Origin: Thermococcus radiotolerans
GTDB taxonomy: Archaea; Methanobacteriota_B; Thermococci; Thermococcales; Thermococcaceae
Reading direction: 5' to 3'
Length of the DNA stretch: 64,000 nt
Assembly (NCBI RefSeq): GCF_002214565.1
Contig: NZ_CP015106.1
Span: forward strand, 1,178,001-1,242,000
This document shows, piece by piece, positions 7,186 through 49,525 of this stretch. Below the pieces are notes generated by a model that was not told the origin of the DNA, ran no database searches, and saw nothing but the letters and a program-made list of their open reading frames with translations. The stretch's first letter is position 1. The number at the start of each line of letters is the position of its first letter. The position numbers were made by a program, and so were the translations under genes.

Positions 7186-8652
7186 GTGGAGGGCCAGACT
7201 CAAATACTGATCGTTCTGGTTCTGTACCTTTCGTTTTTGATAGGGTTCGGAGTTTATCAGGGAAGAAAGGCAAAGAGCGGCAAGGACTTCGCCATCGCAG
7301 GCAGGCAGCTTCCGGGCTGGATAGCGGCGCTCTCGGAGCGCGCCACCGGTGAGTCGGCGTGGGCACTCCTGGGCCTCCCCGGCTTCGCCTATGCCGCCGG
7401 TCTCTCGGCGATATGGGTCGCGGTTGGATGTGTGGCCGGTATCATCGTGGCGTGGACCGTCTTCGCTGGAAGGCTCAGGAGGGAGGCCGAGAAGTACGAC
7501 GCTACCACATTCATCGACTACATCGCTAGGCGCCATTCCGACGCCGAGAAGTGGATAAGAATCCTCGGCAGCGTTACAGTGGTGTTCTTCTTTTTCTTCT
7601 ACGTCGGTGCCCAGTTCCTCGGCGGCGGAAAGACGCTGAGCACTCTCTTCGGCGTTGATCCAAAGATTGGAATGCTGATAACCGCTGTGATAATCCTGCC
7701 CTACACCGTCCTCGGAGGCCTCAAGAGCGTCGCCTACACCGACACCGTCCAGGCGATAGTCATGATACTCACCCTCACCATAGCGCCAATAGTCGGTCTC
7801 GTCTACATCGCCAACCACCCGGATGTTTTCGCCCACTCGGTCTCCAGCGCCCTAGAGATGTCCGGGCCCGAGTACTCCACGATCCTCGGCGGCCTCGTTG
7901 GCGGCGCGGCGTTCGTCTTCGTCATAGCCGAGTTCTCCTGGTTCTTCGGCTACCTCGGTGGAATGCCCCAGCTCAGCATCAGGTTCATGGCGATCAAGGA
8001 CGAGAAGAACGCTAAACTCGCCAGGAACGTCGGCGTCAGCTGGACCATACTGGCCTACATCGGTGCCCTCCTCATAGGATGGATTGGAATAGCCATCTTC
8101 GGCCCGACCGGCCTCGAGGACCAGGAGGCCGTTATGCCCTCGGTTATGCTGAAGCTGTTCCCGCCCTTCCTCGCGGCGATATTCATAACCGGTGCGATAG
8201 CGGCCATGCTCTCGACGGCTGATTCACTGCTCATACTCTCCGCCACCGAGCTCTCGGAAAACCTGCTCAAGCCCTTCGTCTACAAGGACGACTTCGACCC
8301 GAAGAGGAGCCTCAAGCTCTCGAGAATTACCACCGTCGCCCTGGGAGTCATAGCGCTCGTTACAGCCTACCTCGTCCCGTCAAAGCTCATCTACACCATC
8401 GTCGGCTACACCTGGGCAGGAATAGGCGACACCTTCTCCGTGATAGTCATAATGACGCTGTTCTGGAAGAGGTTCCACGGAAGGGCCGTCCCGCCGACCA
8501 TCGTAACGGGACTGCTGTTCACCATCTTCTGGATCAGCTCGGGGCTTGAGAAGGTCGTCTCGGCAAGGCTCATGACCTTCATCGTGACCGCGGTGGTTGC
8601 GGTGATAGCGACCTACGCCCTGAAACCCAAGGAGGCAGCCGCCACCGCCTGA
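7186..8652 (+). CDS. sodium:solute symporter (SSF family, PutP-like)
   Basis: A 488-residue secondary transporter with about 13 hydrophobic helices. The SSF hallmarks are AGRQLPGWIAALSERATGES (loop after TM1), VVFFFFFYVGAQFLGGGKTL and ITGAIAAMLSTADSLLILSATE (about residues 335-356), the last holding sodium-site serine/threonine residues. It imports a small organic solute, in this family often proline or another amino acid, with Na+. GTG 7186 follows GGTGAT (7174-7179) by six bases and lies downstream of the expected transcription start; starts at 7159 or 7168 would precede it. Monocistronic, with a T-rich end. Confidence 0.88.
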   Translation: MEGQTQILIVLVLYLSFLIGFGVYQGRKAKSGKDFAIAGRQLPGWIAALSERATGESAWALLGLPGFAYAAGLSAIWVAVGCVAGIIVAWTVFAGRLRREAEKYDATTFIDYIARRHSDAEKWIRILGSVTVVFFFFFYVGAQFLGGGKTLSTLFGVDPKIGMLITAVIILPYTVLGGLKSVAYTDTVQAIVMILTLTIAPIVGLVYIANHPDVFAHSVSSALEMSGPEYSTILGGLVGGAAFVFVIAEFSWFFGYLGGMPQLSIRFMAIKDEKNAKLARNVGVSWTILAYIGALLIGWIGIAIFGPTGLEDQEAVMPSVMLKLFPPFLAAIFITGAIAAMLSTADSLLILSATELSENLLKPFVYKDDFDPKRSLKLSRITTVALGVIALVTAYLVPSKLIYTIVGYTWAGIGDTFSVIVIMTLFWKRFHGRAVPPTIVTGLLFTIFWISSGLEKVVSARLMTFIVTAVVAVIATYALKPKEAAATA

Positions 8653-8702
8653 GTTTTGTTTTTTATCCATTGATGTCCTTTTTAGCCCATCAGGGCTTTA
8701 CT
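8653..8702 (+). terminator. T-rich terminator and small hairpin after the symporter
   Basis: The run GTTTTGTTTTTTATCC follows the stop codon directly, and a hairpin AGCCC-ATCA-GGGCT (8684-8697) followed by further T residues lies just behind. T runs are the usual archaeal termination signal; the hairpin may be incidental. Confidence 0.4.
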
Positions 8703-8745
8703 TTTCCCCCTCCATGCTCATATTTGCCTCTCTGTCCTCTTTAGG

Positions 8746-8758
8746 AAAGCTTATATAC
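8746..8758 (+). promoter_or_regulatory. BRE/TATA element of the acd-ior operon
   Basis: AAAGC followed by TTATATAC, about 35 bases before GTG 8791, with GGTGA (8779-8783) as the ribosome site between them. Confidence 0.55.
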
Positions 8759-8790
8759 AATTCCACCGATGCCGTAACGGTGAGCGACAA

Positions 8791-10170
8791 GTGACGTTTG
8801 ATTACTTCTTCAAGCCAAAGGCTATAGCGGTTATTGGAGCATCCAACGACCCGCTCAAGCTTGGCTACGAGGTCTTCAAGAACCTTAAGGATTACAAGGA
8901 CGGCAAGGTCTATCCCGTGAACGTCAAGGACGAGGTCGTTCAGGGCGTCAAGGCTTACAAGAACGTGAAGGACATCCCGGACGAGGTTGACCTGGCGGTA
9001 GTCGTCGTTCCGAAGCGATTCGTCAAGGGCACCATAGTGGACTGCGGTGAGAAGGGCGTCAAGGGGATAATCCTCATCACCGCCGGTTTCGGTGAGGTCG
9101 GTGAGGAGGGCAAGAGGGAGGAGCGCGAGCTCGTTGAGATAGCCCACAGGTACGGCATGCGCATAGTCGGCCCCAACTGCGTCGGTATAATGAACACCCA
9201 CAACGCCATGAACGCCACCTTCGTGATGGACGCGAAGAGGGGCGACATAGCCTTCATAAGCCAGAGCGGCGCCCTCGGGGCGGGAATAATTTACAAGACC
9301 GTCAAGGAGGGAATAGGCTTCTCCAAGTTCGTCAGCATCGGCAACATGGCGGACGTTGACTTCTCCGAGTTTATGGAGTACCTCGCCGACACCGAGGAGG
9401 ACAAGGCCATAGCGCTCTACATCGAGGGCCTGAAGAACGGAAGGGCCTTCATGGAGATAGCCAAGCGCGTTACCAAGAAGAAGCCCGTCATAGTTCTCAA
9501 GGCAGGAAAGAGCGAGAGCGGGGCTAGGGCGGCTTCAAGCCACACGGGTTCACTCGCAGGCTCGTACAAGATATACGAGGCTGCCTTCAAGCAGAGCGGA
9601 ATAATCGTCGCGGACACGATAGACGACATGCTAAGCATGGCTCGCGCTTTCACCCAGCCGCTGCCGAAGGGAACCCGCGTCGCCATCATGACCAACGCCG
9701 GTGGACCTGGAGTCCTCACCGCGGACGAGATAGACAAGCGCGGGCTGAAGCTGGCCAACCTCGAGGAGGAGACCATCGAGGGACTTCGCTCGTTCCTCCC
9801 GCCGATGGCCGCTGTGAAGAACCCGGTCGATATGATCGCGAGCGCCAGGGGGGAGGACTACTACAAGACCGCAAAGCTTCTCCTCGAAGACCCCAACGTT
9901 GACATGCTCATCAGCATCTGTGTCGTTCCGACCTTCGCGGGTATGACGCCGACCGAGCACGCGGAAGGCGTCGTGAGAGCCGTCAAGGAGGTCAACAACG
10001 GCAAGCCGGTTCTCGGTCTGTTCATGGCAGGCTACGTGAGCGAGCCCGCGAAGGAGGTTCTCGAGAAGGCAGGCATTCCGAGCTACGAAAGGCCGGAGGA
10101 TGCTGCTGCTGCAGCCTACGCCCTCGTGGAGTTTGCAAAGGCTAAGGGAGTTTTGAAGGAAGAGGAATGA
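8791..10170 (+). CDS. acdA: ADP-forming acyl-CoA synthetase alpha subunit (ACD-II type)
   Basis: A 459-residue alpha subunit of the archaeal ADP-forming acetate/acyl-CoA ligase, which makes ATP from acyl-CoA, ADP and phosphate. Seen in order: CoA-binding Rossmann domain (AVIGASNDPLKLGYEV), succinyl-CoA-ligase-like domain (GPNCVGIMN, SQSGALGAG), and ASSHTGSLAGS, where His251 is the phosphohistidine. The gene lies directly before iorA and iorB, the order known in Pyrococcus furiosus for ACD-II, the isoenzyme accepting aryl-acetyl-CoA. It would therefore convert the product of IOR into an aryl acid with ATP gain. The beta subunit is not in the window. Confidence 0.9.
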   Translation: MTFDYFFKPKAIAVIGASNDPLKLGYEVFKNLKDYKDGKVYPVNVKDEVVQGVKAYKNVKDIPDEVDLAVVVVPKRFVKGTIVDCGEKGVKGIILITAGFGEVGEEGKREERELVEIAHRYGMRIVGPNCVGIMNTHNAMNATFVMDAKRGDIAFISQSGALGAGIIYKTVKEGIGFSKFVSIGNMADVDFSEFMEYLADTEEDKAIALYIEGLKNGRAFMEIAKRVTKKKPVIVLKAGKSESGARAASSHTGSLAGSYKIYEAAFKQSGIIVADTIDDMLSMARAFTQPLPKGTRVAIMTNAGGPGVLTADEIDKRGLKLANLEEETIEGLRSFLPPMAAVKNPVDMIASARGEDYYKTAKLLLEDPNVDMLISICVVPTFAGMTPTEHAEGVVRAVKEVNNGKPVLGLFMAGYVSEPAKEVLEKAGIPSYERPEDAAAAAYALVEFAKAKGVLKEEE

Positions 10171-44936: not shown

Positions 44937-45537
44937 ATGGGGAGGGAGCTGACGGTACTGTAGGGGCAAGGAGAAGGCGGGAAAGCCGAGGATGCTGAAG
45001 GTAAAAGGAAGAACGTTTTCGTGTTAACCGTCTCCATGTTCCTCGCCAACGTCGCCTTTGGGATGGCCTTTCCCTATTTGAGTGTTTACATGCACCTCCT
45101 CGGCGGGACGATGGTCATGGTCGGCCTTTTGAGCGTCGCCTTCAACCTGACCTCGACAGTCTTCCAGTACCCCTTCGGCTGGCTCTCCGATTCAACCGGC
45201 AACAGGAAGGGCCTCATAGCCCTCGGCCTGTTCTCGACTGGAGTGTTCTACACCGCCATGGCGCTCGTTTCAACTCATCTCGCCCTCCCTGCCTTTAGGA
45301 CAGCCCAGGGGCGTTGGATTCGGCGATGATGCCCGCGAAGTCCGCCCTCATAGCCGAGTTCTCCACGAGGATATAGGCTCCGCCTACTGCATCTTCTCCA
45401 CCGTTGAGAACTCGGGTTTCACGGTGGATACCTTCCTCGGCGGCTACCTCCCGGGGATAAGCTTCACGCTCAACTTCCTCAGCACTCTGATTCCTCTTGA
45501 ACTGGCGTTCGTATTTGCAACTAAGTTAAAAAGTTAA
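44937..45537 (+). pseudogene. broken MFS transporter gene, N-terminal half
   Basis: ATG 44937 is placed right for a leaderless message, but the ninth codon is TAG (44961). Reading on in the same frame gives FVLTVSMFLANVAFGMAFPY, TSTVFQYPFGWLSDSTGNRKG (MFS loop 2-3) to about 45300. A frameshift then leads to ALDSAMMPAKSALIAEF, and a second (TAG at about 45372) to GSAYCIFSTVENSGF and a sixth helix ending LELAFVFATKLKS-stop at 45537. The C-terminal six helices are missing. At least three lesions show that it is not functional. A sugar or peptide carrier is likely from its neighbours. Confidence 0.78.
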
Positions 45538-45541
45538 TAAC

Positions 45542-46405
45542 TCATAACTGTATTTCCATGTAAACCCCACTAGCATCGTCACTTGGCTTTAGTCTTGGGA
45601 ATTTTATACAATTTGGGTCATTATTTTCAATATTTCTCAACAAGACATAGGCTGTTTTTAGCTCCTTTTGATGAGCAATAAACGCCATGAGTTTTTGGTA
45701 TGAGTTGAATAATTTATATGTCGAGATAATAGCATCAAATCCATCTGTTAATGCTAAGATGCGAGCGTTTTCGTTTATCCTTTCCTTTCCATATATTGCA
45801 TGGTCAATAGCTTCCTCTTGAAAACTAAGAACCCAATACCCTTTAGGCGTATTTTTGAGAGATCTATGTTTCCTAAGAATAGGTAGGATCTTTTTTCTTG
45901 CAACCTCATATGAGTATCCCTTTTGTAGATATGAACTAAGAATAGATACTGCTTTCGAGTCTAACTTCTCAAGAGTTTTGTCTTTAACTACTTTGGACAA
46001 GTTTTTGTCTATTATAAAGGAGAGAACACTATCCCCCAATACTAAATACTCGAACTCAGTATAATCTTTAGCAAATCGAACAATAACCAAAGAGGAAGAG
46101 GGTTCTGCATATGGTGGGAGGTATTCTATCCCTTTTTTATCCAGTAGTTTTTGCCATTTTTTTTGAACATAATAAACTCCTTTTTTGACAATATCTTTAA
46201 GAGGGCTTTTTTTTGTTATGTTCTTAGTAAGGTATATATCAAATTCTTTAACAAACCAATGCGCATCACTTTTCCCCGCTAGCTGAACATCCCATAATCC
46301 AGTCGCCCCATCCATTACCCAAAATGATCTATATCCAAATCCAACTAGATCTTCATTTATTTTCCCAGCACCTTCTGATAAAACTGCCATGTTTATGTGA
46401 ACCAT
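45542..46405 (-). CDS. PP2C-family protein phosphatase in an A+T-rich island
   Basis: A 287-residue PP2C-type phosphatase with all metal-site motifs: NED (residues 17-19), DGATG (32-36), LGDSVLSFI (about 122-130), LTDGFDAI (about 217-224) and SDDASGV near the end. It should remove phosphate from Ser/Thr of proteins using Mn/Mg. It starts inside the last codons of the TPR/membrane gene upstream (13-base overlap), so the two are translated together. The DNA is far more A+T-rich than its surroundings (17 G+C in the 60 bases from 46441), a sign of recent transfer. No cognate kinase gene is in the window. Confidence 0.82.
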   Translation of the reverse strand: MVHINMAVLSEGAGKINEDLVGFGYRSFWVMDGATGLWDVQLAGKSDAHWFVKEFDIYLTKNITKKSPLKDIVKKGVYYVQKKWQKLLDKKGIEYLPPYAEPSSSLVIVRFAKDYTEFEYLVLGDSVLSFIIDKNLSKVVKDKTLEKLDSKAVSILSSYLQKGYSYEVARKKILPILRKHRSLKNTPKGYWVLSFQEEAIDHAIYGKERINENARILALTDGFDAIISTYKLFNSYQKLMAFIAHQKELKTAYVLLRNIENNDPNCIKFPRLKPSDDASGVYMEIQL

Positions 46406-47562
46406 CTCCCCATCCCTCCTATTATGATGAACACAGAAAGTAATATAGACAATGCAATTACAATAACACTAAAGAGGTCTAGCTTTTTCCTATCAAAGAT
46501 GATTAAATTTAGCCCAAAAGGAAGAAGTACAAATAATAATAATATCCCACCCAACACAAGAATTAGGTTTATTATGTTTATATTATTGGAACTAGCGGGT
46601 AAGGTAGTACCAGTAGTTACAAGGACACCTATAATTGCAGTGAAGATGGCCAATATCTCAATATTCCTTAGTCTCTCAGTTGACAAAAATTCCATAATCT
46701 TCGATTTTTCTTGCTCAAACAATTGCATAATTTCCAATTCCTCTCGTTTAATTTCATTTTTTAGTGCCTTCAGTAATTTCGCATAGTATAAATACATCAT
46801 ATACTGGGATAATCTTAGTGTATAGTCCTTTTCCGTCGGATCCTCTAATGATATTCCCCTAGTTATTAATTCAATCGCCCTCTTAAATTCCCCTTTTATT
46901 ATGTATAATCTACCCAATGTTATGTAGAATTTAGGATAATCCCCCTTGTCAATGGCTTCATTCAAGTATTTTTCCGCCATATTTAATAGTTCTTTTGGAG
47001 TAAACGACTCAGTATATATATCAATTTTCTCGGCATCCTCAAAATCTATTTCATTCCACTCAAATAATTCTACCACGCTTTCAGCAAAATTATGTAACAC
47101 TCCTGGGTTCTCTCTAAGGATTGGGTCTTTAACTGCTCTATAAGCAGCTTCTAATGATTTTTTGAATTCATTTAGATTTTTATATGCCATGGCTTTTAAA
47201 TGCCACAAAAAAGGAACATCTTTAAATTCTTGATCATATCTTTTGATGAGATCTATTAATTTATCATAGTTACCTATGCGCCGATGAAATGTAAATAACA
47301 CAAAAAACAAGGTAAAGCCTATATTTTTATTATCTTCGTCTCTTATTCTTAATTGTATTTTATCTTCCAGATATTTTTTGTTTTTTAATTTTTCAATTAA
47401 ACTCTTACTCACTAATTTAGTGATCGCTAATTCATACTCTCTCGTACCAACCTCATAGTTTTCAAGTATTTTTTTGATCTCCTCAAGAATCTCTTTGAGG
47501 ATTATATCTTGTTGGCTGTGGTAGGTTGTAATATCTTCGTGAGGCACTTCTTGCCCTGACAT
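46393..47562 (-). CDS. TPR protein with C-terminal membrane helices, partner of the PP2C gene
   Basis: A 389-residue protein. The N-terminal two thirds is helical with TPR-like repeats (FLWHLKAMAYKNLNEFKKSLEAA at about 130, KFYITLGRLYIIKGEFKRAIEL at about 215); then come three membrane helices (NIEILAIFTAIIGVLVTTG, NLILVLGGILLLFVLLPFGL, FSVIVIALSILLSVFIIIGGM), ending at the membrane. The TPR part likely binds partner proteins in the cytoplasm. ATG 47562 is chosen because TTTATAAA (47600-47593, minus strand) lies 35 bases before it; ATG 47613 would be upstream of that TATA box. No known family recognised. Confidence 0.7.
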   Translation of the reverse strand: MSGQEVPHEDITTYHSQQDIILKEILEEIKKILENYEVGTREYELAITKLVSKSLIEKLKNKKYLEDKIQLRIRDEDNKNIGFTLFFVLFTFHRRIGNYDKLIDLIKRYDQEFKDVPFLWHLKAMAYKNLNEFKKSLEAAYRAVKDPILRENPGVLHNFAESVVELFEWNEIDFEDAEKIDIYTESFTPKELLNMAEKYLNEAIDKGDYPKFYITLGRLYIIKGEFKRAIELITRGISLEDPTEKDYTLRLSQYMMYLYYAKLLKALKNEIKREELEIMQLFEQEKSKIMEFLSTERLRNIEILAIFTAIIGVLVTTGTTLPASSNNINIINLILVLGGILLLFVLLPFGLNLIIFDRKKLDLFSVIVIALSILLSVFIIIGGMGRWFT

Positions 47563-47592
47563 GAGGATCCCAGAATTGGATATTGAAAAGAT

Positions 47593-47600
47593 TTTATAAA
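47593..47600 (-). promoter_or_regulatory. TATA box of the TPR-PP2C pair
   Basis: TTTATAAA on the minus strand, with a T-run before it, 31-38 bases ahead of ATG 47562. Confidence 0.45.
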
Positions 47601-47720
47601 AATTATCACCCATATCTCTAGCTCTCTCTGCGAGTAGCGGAGAATGTATGCCATCAGCCTGCTAACTTTAACCCTCGGCGGCATGGAGAAAAGTGGGAGA
47701 AAGGAGTTAAAAACCAAACC

Positions 47721-49466
47721 TCACGGCAGTTCAATGACCGCCCACACCGGCCTGTGGTCAGAAACCTCAATGTCACAGAGGCAACCGTAGTCCTTCACCC
47801 TAGCCGGCCAGTCTCTCTTGAGCAGGATGTAGTCGATGTTCTCCTCGTCCCTGACGCCGTTGCGCTCCCAGAGGAATGTGTAGGGCGGCCTCTCCGGGAA
47901 GGCATCCTTGTAGTCGCGGGTGAGTATCTCTATCGCCCTCTCGTCCGGCTCGGCGTTGGTGTCGCCGGCTATTATCTGGGCCACCGGCGAGGCCTCGGCG
48001 AACTTCAGAAGCTCCTCGGCCTGCATGGCCCTCTCCTCCTCGCTGAGGCCCATGTGAACGTTCACGAGGGTTACCCCGAGCTCCTCGATGGAGACCTTCT
48101 GGGCCGGTCTCGCCTGACCCATGCTCGGGAGGTTCAGCTCGGCCTCGGTCTTCATGTGCCAGTGGGAGAAGACCGCTATGCCGTAGGTTCCCTCTATGGC
48201 CGGCTTGTACTCATAGGCGTAGCCGAGGTGAGCGGAGATGAAGAGCGGAACGTCCTGGTAGCCGTTGCCTATCATTCCCCCGACGACCTCCTGGGCAAAC
48301 CAGATGTCAGGATTCTTTTCGGAGAGGAGGTTCACCAGCTCGTAGCCGTTGAAGGTTCCGTCGTACGGCCCGAAGCCCTGGTGGACGTTGTAGGTCCACA
48401 CGAGAACGTCCTTCTTGGCCTCATCATAGGTGGGTCCCGCGTTGAAGAGGGCGAGTACTATAACAGAAGCCACCACAACGCCGAGGAGTGGGCCGGCAAC
48501 CTCCTTTACGCTCGGAAGGCTTACCTCGGTGCCCTTCCCGTAGGTGTTGAGGGCGTAGATGATGGAGACGGCCAGGATCAGTGCCTCAAGCCTGTCCTCC
48601 ATGAAGGGCAAGCCTATGTCCCTGCCGACGTAGGCCCCGAGGGCGAGCGTGGCGACGAGGAACAGGTAAACGGCCCCGATAATTCCCCCTCTGCTGCCCT
48701 TCGCATTCTTAACGAGGGCTATGGCAGAGGCGAGTGCCAGAGGAAGGCCGACCAGTGAGAGGGGCTTGAGGAAGAGCGTCGCTGAGCCGATTATCAGGAG
48801 CGCCATCGCAACTGTCGGCTTCCTCGCGAGGTATGGGCCGAGCAGTATCGCCAAGGCAAGGAGCAGGGAGAAGCCGACGAACTCAGGGAGATAATAGACA
48901 GTCATCCCGGAGTAGCGCATCACCGCGTTGGGGTAAATCAGCCCCAGCTCAAGGAGCGCCGCGAAGGCGTAGAGACCGAAGCCGGGCTTTTTGAGCGTTC
49001 CAGGTTCCTTCCAGAGAGCATAGGCTCCCAGAAGCAGGAAGAGCGTCAGAACAACCCTCGTGTATGGGAAGTCGGCCGGCTCGGCACCGACAGCTAGCAC
49101 GCGGAGTGAAAGGTCCGCAACGAGTCCCATGGCGAGGTACTTGACGTCAAGCTCCTTGACGAGCGCAAGGGCAACGGGCAGGGCGAATGCCGCTAAGAGA
49201 TGGACGTACTCGGTCGCGTCGGTGGCGAGGAGTACAAGGGCGTAGGCTGCCATTATTGCTGCCCCGACCTTCCTGCTGAGCCTGCCGACGAGAAAGGCCG
49301 CCAGAAGGAGCAGGAGAATTCCCAGTCCGGATGGGAAGTTCATTCCATAGAAGAAAGTCTTCTCCAGACTTGAGTACGCTCCGGCCACAAAGACCCTGAG
49401 GGACGAGGCCAGCAGCACCCCAGTTCCAAGACCGAGCAGTATTTTATCCCTCTCGTCCAAGTTCAT
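47721..49466 (-). CDS. membrane protein with C-terminal endonuclease/exonuclease/phosphatase domain
   Basis: A 581-residue fusion. About 335 residues of hydrophobic helices (roughly ten) come first, then an EEP-superfamily domain: LVWTYNVHQGFGPYDG, WFAQEVVGGMIGNG (catalytic Glu), TLVNVHMGLSEEE, IIAGDTNAEPDE and the end SDHRPVWAVIEL with the Asp-His pair. All EEP metal and catalytic residues are visible, so it should cut phosphodiesters or phosphomonoesters, perhaps of lipids or inositol phosphates, at the membrane. ATG 49466 follows AGGTGATGGGT. Confidence 0.83.
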   Translation of the reverse strand: MNLDERDKILLGLGTGVLLASSLRVFVAGAYSSLEKTFFYGMNFPSGLGILLLLLAAFLVGRLSRKVGAAIMAAYALVLLATDATEYVHLLAAFALPVALALVKELDVKYLAMGLVADLSLRVLAVGAEPADFPYTRVVLTLFLLLGAYALWKEPGTLKKPGFGLYAFAALLELGLIYPNAVMRYSGMTVYYLPEFVGFSLLLALAILLGPYLARKPTVAMALLIIGSATLFLKPLSLVGLPLALASAIALVKNAKGSRGGIIGAVYLFLVATLALGAYVGRDIGLPFMEDRLEALILAVSIIYALNTYGKGTEVSLPSVKEVAGPLLGVVVASVIVLALFNAGPTYDEAKKDVLVWTYNVHQGFGPYDGTFNGYELVNLLSEKNPDIWFAQEVVGGMIGNGYQDVPLFISAHLGYAYEYKPAIEGTYGIAVFSHWHMKTEAELNLPSMGQARPAQKVSIEELGVTLVNVHMGLSEEERAMQAEELLKFAEASPVAQIIAGDTNAEPDERAIEILTRDYKDAFPERPPYTFLWERNGVRDEENIDYILLKRDWPARVKDYGCLCDIEVSDHRPVWAVIELP

Positions 49467-49525
49467 ACCCATCACCTAAAACTCAAGTTGTTGGGGGAAC
49501 ACTTAAGCTTTGTTGATGTTCCGAC

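Follow-up and report, generated by a model that had tools for sequence, protein, structure and literature searches.

A 2111-bp segment of foreign DNA, horizontally acquired and holding just two genes, lies at positions 45519..47629 of the 64,000-nucleotide window of the Thermococcus radiotolerans chromosome analysed here (contig NZ_CP015106.1). The two adjacent genes that it carries, encoding a TPR protein and a PP2C-type phosphatase, recur together across archaea and bacteria in both gene orders, and on related TPR domains a three-helix membrane region (3TM) is exchanged for a TIR domain. We consider the chances about even that this pair is a small mobile toxin-antitoxin-like immune module, in which the PP2C would restrain a TPR sensor/killer until infection.

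The foreign origin of this DNA was established from its G+C content (33.1% against 57.1 ± 2.0%, with a minimum of 51.8%, in all other 2.1-kb windows) and from its absence at the matching site in close relatives. Homology to the closest relative (L175, genome G033) ends at position 45518 and restarts at 47630, with flanks aligning at 89-90% identity, and codon use differs sharply between the segment and the rest (AAA 0.80 versus 0.27; TTA 0.37 versus 0.02). The first-pass annotation had described an A+T-rich, recently acquired island at 45538-47650; composition, codon use and the empty site in relatives support both properties, whereas the true limits, 45519-47629, leave approximately 17 bp ahead of the TPR start codon and 23 bp past the last stop codon. 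No homologue of either protein was found in the 93 other Thermococcales genomes searched, and the pair, present in one of 94 such genomes and foreign in composition, is not a conserved Thermococcus locus. No flanking repeats and no plasmid or mobile-element signature were found at the segment ends, and a transposon or integron cassette was ruled out by the lack of terminal repeats and of any recombinase within the acquired DNA. Scans of IMG/VR returned no relatives that would indicate a viral origin, and the single "phage" match (MT836178) is to a fecal contig, unverified and bearing genes of chromosomal type, and was rejected as viral evidence.

The segment took the place of approximately 488 bp of ancestral DNA, which held the last part of an MFS transporter gene and almost the whole of kptA. 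The transporter remnant (45021..45518, plus strand), initially noted as a broken gene beside the pair, carries a 620-bp internal deletion and frameshifts and has lost its 3' end, and an intact 411-aa homologue is present in L175. On the other side, the segment boundary truncates kptA, which encodes RNA 2'-phosphotransferase, after about 18 codons (47630..47684, minus strand), a feature missed in the first-pass annotation. The gene is intact in relatives (family match NF002013, 2.6e-87), and of 24 further genomes of the genus that were examined, 20 have a KptA match. No other KptA match was found in this genome, which thus presents a natural loss of kptA. The TPR gene starts about 17 bp inside the kptA-side junction, and expression of the pair probably depends on the kptA promoter. 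Beyond it, the EEP-family gene (47721..49475, minus strand) is intact, as had been reported; it lies outside the system and served as an anchor for the empty-site comparison.

Both acquired genes are on the minus strand, intact and overlapping by 13 bp, in agreement with their initial description. The first (46393..47613, minus strand), delineated by its open reading frame, Pfam, hydropathy and an AlphaFold2 model, encodes a 406-aa TPR-coiled-coil-3TM protein. Its predicted TPR/helical-repeat sensor domain spans approximately residues 28-272 (46798..47532, minus strand), based on the conserved family alignment and on the model, which places helices at residues 28-256 with the repeats at a pLDDT of about 90, and Pfam identifies a TPR_8 match (E=1.9e-7). 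The domain is followed by a long helix and three transmembrane helices (residues 264-405; 46399..46824, minus strand), the portion replaced by TIR in gut Clostridia. The three terminal membrane helices originally read from the sequence correspond to hydrophobic helices at residues 320-338, 350-368 and 380-398, in a part of the model that is of low confidence (pLDDT of about 50-60). Searches of PADLOC-DB 2.0 with this protein returned only PDC-M71B (0.0028), a match that spans the TPR repeats and is not convincing.

The second gene (45542..46405, minus strand), whose start provides the overlap with the end of the TPR gene, encodes a PP2C-type phosphatase of 287 aa. The protein itself (P0001) matches no Pfam model above cut-off and no PADLOC-DB 2.0 model, and its homologues match PF13672 (PP2C_2). 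In Foldseek searches its AlphaFold2 model (pLDDT 95.4, pTM 0.92) matched Mycobacterium tuberculosis PstP (E=3e-11), with other PP2Cs scoring more weakly. Every motif on which the enzyme had been called a complete PP2C (NED, DGATG, GDS, TDG and DDA) is present. Across 22 homologues, N17/D19, D32/G33, D125, D221/G222 and D276/D277 are invariant and the metal-binding aspartate set (motifs NED, DG, GD, DG and DD) is complete, with E18 replaced by Q in one homologue, and N185, G189-Y190 and R271 constitute subfamily-specific invariant residues. A phosphate-binding arginine in motif 1 is a feature of PP2C/PPM phosphatases. No arginine is conserved before NED across the 22 homologues; the invariant R271 may act as its substitute, and membership in the PP2C fold is not overturned. 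Neither NCBIfam nor PHROGs provided a convincing model for the phosphatase or for the TPR protein.

The pairing was recovered from both directions, by searching for the PP2C and then for the TPR gene and vice versa, with weak matches to generic TPR proteins excluded from membership. Adjacent TPR and PP2C genes were identified at ten loci in five lineages, comprising the Thermococcales, a Clostridia MAG, three Moorella-class genomes, three haloarchaea and gut Clostridia. A scan of one genome per species across 84,980 species yielded 80 PP2C loci. At two of them, in L009 (the Clostridia MAG) and L012 (Moorella mulderi), the PP2C is immediately preceded by a TPR-3TM gene. In plasmid and phage collections searched with the PP2C, the relatives were full-length but unpaired, except on one fecal contig (L006), where the PP2C overlaps a TPR gene; an alignment search with the TPR-3TM protein identified the three Moorella-class genomes, about ten haloarchaea and gut Clostridia. 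Most loci follow the TPR-to-PP2C order, which is reversed in haloarchaea L144-L146, where the PP2C gene is immediately upstream of the TPR gene and one of the three PP2Cs is frameshifted. In gut-Clostridia locus L153 the PP2C gene lies downstream of the TPR gene, and the L154 contig ends before that point. Neighbourhoods of the pair vary between lineages, in several of which it is more A+T-rich than its own locus (G+C of 0.49-0.51 versus 0.59 in L144). Ten loci with differing neighbourhoods in five lineages thus bear out repeated linkage at variable locations. TPR-3TM genes also occur without a PP2C in haloarchaea L147-L152, on a Natrinema plasmid (L008:7722-8950, frameshifted) and in the Bacillota-group locus L235 (7210-8328). 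Plasmids yielded no intact pair, the sole plasmid TPR-3TM being without a PP2C.

The phosphatase does not constitute a pair-specific family, as paired PP2Cs do not form one clade (AU p=5e-55), nor can the whole family be assigned to defence, because lone members of the subfamily have other settings. In Sphingomonadaceae (L004:5996-9762 and L003:5659-9964) lone PP2Cs lie beside anhydro-N-acetylmuramic acid kinase, nagA and SIS-type genes, the Sphingopyxis copy adjoining the kinase with nagA nearby, and a role in cell-wall recycling is possible for these proteins. A sigma-factor-like regulator and a subfamily PP2C make up a recurrent candidate pair on actinobacterial plasmids (L005:7109-8873 and L007:5247-6834), several records of which are annotated "integrase" or "UTRA". 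The PP2C is fused to an apparent glycosyltransferase in Peptostreptococcus anaerobius (L018:5959-8061), and PP2C and glycosyltransferase-like genes are separate neighbours in P. porci and Peptostreptococcus sp. D1; in Salinibacillus (L022:4657-9483) a subfamily PP2C lies, as judged by eye, among apparent sigma-factor and ylm/sepF cell-division genes. The first-pass annotation had named lone homologues with an assigned metabolic role as grounds for refuting its reading; this applies in part, since lone PP2C homologues lie in settings of metabolic appearance and none was seen for the TPR protein.

Two gut-Clostridia loci, L006 and L153, carry a TIR_2 domain (E=1e-16 and 6e-16) after the TPR domain, in place of the 3TM part. 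The domain, which also matches ThsB and antiphage-TIR models, keeps a conserved glutamate (YVRMEI/FVRNEI), and glutamate at this position is catalytic in TIR NADases. In a tree of TPR domains, the TIR forms make up a 100/98 clade among 3TM forms, demonstrating exchange of TM and TIR on related TPR domains. A 91/91 branch separates all PP2C-linked TPRs from the PP2C-less haloarchaeal TPR-3TMs, and L235, which has no PP2C, falls inside the PP2C-linked clade. It is typical of abortive-infection systems that TIR and TM replace each other on a single sensor whose neighbouring partner stays conserved, and the 3TM/TIR exchange here provides such repeated linkage with exchangeable effectors. The TPR protein had been proposed to sense or to anchor; because relatives carry TIR instead of membrane helices, that proposal needs revision, and the comparison of sequences suggests that the membrane part is better read as an effector.

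The long-helix/TM profile also matches proteins with other N-termini. In a Clostridia genome (L159:7643-8350 and 8583-9611) a long-helix/TM protein (E=4e-10) is encoded beside an Abi_2 gene, possibly another effector context of this module. At L160 (7096-7944 and 7944-8453), the gene for a candidate membrane toxin, weakly similar to the 3TM part (E=6e-4), shares a 1-base overlap with a SocA/Panacea antitoxin gene, and no further Panacea-linked TM toxins were found on plasmids.

Genomic context links the pair to defence at a single locus. In Moorella mulderi it adjoins a PD-T4-4-like ATPase (E=5e-45), the only clear defence neighbour among the copies; most copies have ordinary neighbours and the window copy lies outside any defence island, so that co-occurrence with defence genes holds for Moorella mulderi and fails for the window copy and most others. 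Virus defence by the pair is plausible. The initial assertion that no known defence locus consists of just this pair agrees with the models of PADLOC-DB 2.0, NCBIfam and PHROGs, and a full-text literature search of largely open-access papers found no described TPR+PP2C system.

Several described systems share components with the pair. The kinase-kinase-phosphatase (KKP) phage-defence module places a PP2C-type phosphatase, the proposed brake in our case, beside a toxic partner, as the pair would; in KKP the phosphatase PfpC is an antitoxin that neutralises toxic kinases and is inhibited by a phage protein (PMC11341870). The KKP toxin, however, is a Ser/Thr kinase pair; in the present system that place is taken by a TPR protein whose putative effector part is TM or TIR, and the acquired DNA, holding only two genes, has no Ser/Thr kinase genes by the phosphatase. 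PanAT systems also comprise two genes with interchangeable toxin domains; PanT toxins for which TM helices are predicted cause membrane depolarisation, and one of them combines a coiled-coil N-terminus with C-terminal helices (PMC8832971), resembling the helical stalk and C-terminal TM helices that make the TPR protein a candidate membrane-depolarising toxin. The PanAT antitoxin, in contrast, is a Panacea domain, and Pfam detected no Panacea match (PF13274) in the TPR protein or in the PP2C, which takes its place here. The TIR_2 domain of the gut-Clostridia form, through its matches to ThsB and antiphage-TIR models, recalls Thoeris, CBASS and short Argonaute systems, but the pair has a TPR sensor and a PP2C and lacks ThsA, cyclase, SAVED and Argonaute. 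With PP2C/PPM enzymes such as PstP the phosphatase shares fold and metal-binding aspartates, differing in its own invariant residues and in the absence of the conserved motif-1 arginine and of a kinase partner gene. The TerY-P triad is a putative conflict locus with a PP2C. The GAP1-N2 conflict systems (PP2C+kinase+vWA; PMC7159879) similarly place a PP2C inside putative conflict loci, but no vWA, kinase or GTPase accompanies the pair described here. The pair is best called a variant of modular toxin-antitoxin/abortive-infection systems, with a putative function.

In the proposed immune module, the TPR protein would combine a sensor and a killing domain in one chain. In the 3TM form, the three membrane helices, following a long helical stalk, would open or depolarise the membrane, and in the TIR form of gut Clostridia the effector would destroy NAD+. 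The PP2C would act as a dedicated partner that keeps the effector off, most likely by taking a phosphate off the TPR protein or off some factor that activates it. A virus that blocks or titrates the phosphatase, or that triggers the TPR sensor, would cause the effector to fire, and the infected cell would stop growing or die. Restraint by dephosphorylation, toxicity, a viral trigger and virus defence are all inferred from the linkage and domain composition described above, together with a patchy, foreign-composition distribution. Counted against this model are the lack of a kinase in the module, the unpaired relatives of both proteins, the metabolic-looking settings of lone PP2Cs, the ordinary neighbours of most copies, the polyphyly of the paired PP2Cs and the weakness of the similarity that connects the 3TM part with Panacea-type toxins.

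The strongest rival, which we nonetheless regard as unlikely, is membrane-anchored phospho-signalling in host physiology (stress or envelope), in which the TPR protein, as a scaffold, would gather phosphatase and substrate at the membrane and no cell death would follow. TPR, TM and PP2C are all commonplace in signalling, and the lone PP2C relatives near anhydro-MurNAc kinase/nagA-type genes and sigma-like regulators fit such a role, but the replacement of TM by a TIR with an NADase-type glutamate and the patchy acquisition of a bare pair with no fixed neighbourhood argue against it. A doubtful alternative reverses the sign of the phosphatase, such that upon infection the PP2C would dephosphorylate, and thereby fire, a TPR effector that is inert or phosphorylated in peace. 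The linkage data fit this alternative as well as they fit a brake, and the survival of PP2C-less TPR-3TMs in haloarchaea would be odd if the PP2C were the sole brake; the locus, however, holds no kinase to keep the effector off, and in the known precedent, KKP, the phosphatase is the brake. That the pair is a selfish addiction cassette, persisting without defending the cell, appears improbable: it is a bare two-gene unit of foreign composition whose insertion disrupted two host genes, but the segment ends lack any plasmid or mobile-element signature and plasmids yielded just one TPR-3TM, unpaired. A non-functional passenger of illegitimate recombination is very improbable, for although the acquired DNA has no promoter region of its own, its start codon lying some 17 bp from the junction, and is a singleton within the Thermococcales, both frames are open with all catalytic and structural positions kept, and the upstream kptA promoter could serve.

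Returning to the immune module with the PP2C as its brake, we tentatively propose, with a confidence that falls somewhat short of even, that the pair represents an undescribed archaeal-bacterial immune family, in which a PP2C would restrain a TPR protein with an interchangeable 3TM or TIR killer and the kinase would come from the host or the virus. Among the systems found here, only KKP, which carries its own kinases, offers a clear earlier case of a phosphatase brake in prokaryotic immunity. If the proposal is true, bacteria and hyperthermophilic archaea would share a compact, portable two-gene system of 2.1 kb, combining a PP2C with a swappable TM/TIR part, that places cell suicide under phosphorylation control using a host or viral kinase instead of its own, and the question would arise of which kinase the PP2C opposes. 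It would also provide the Thermococcales with a defence candidate located outside the defence islands to which guilt-by-association searches are confined.
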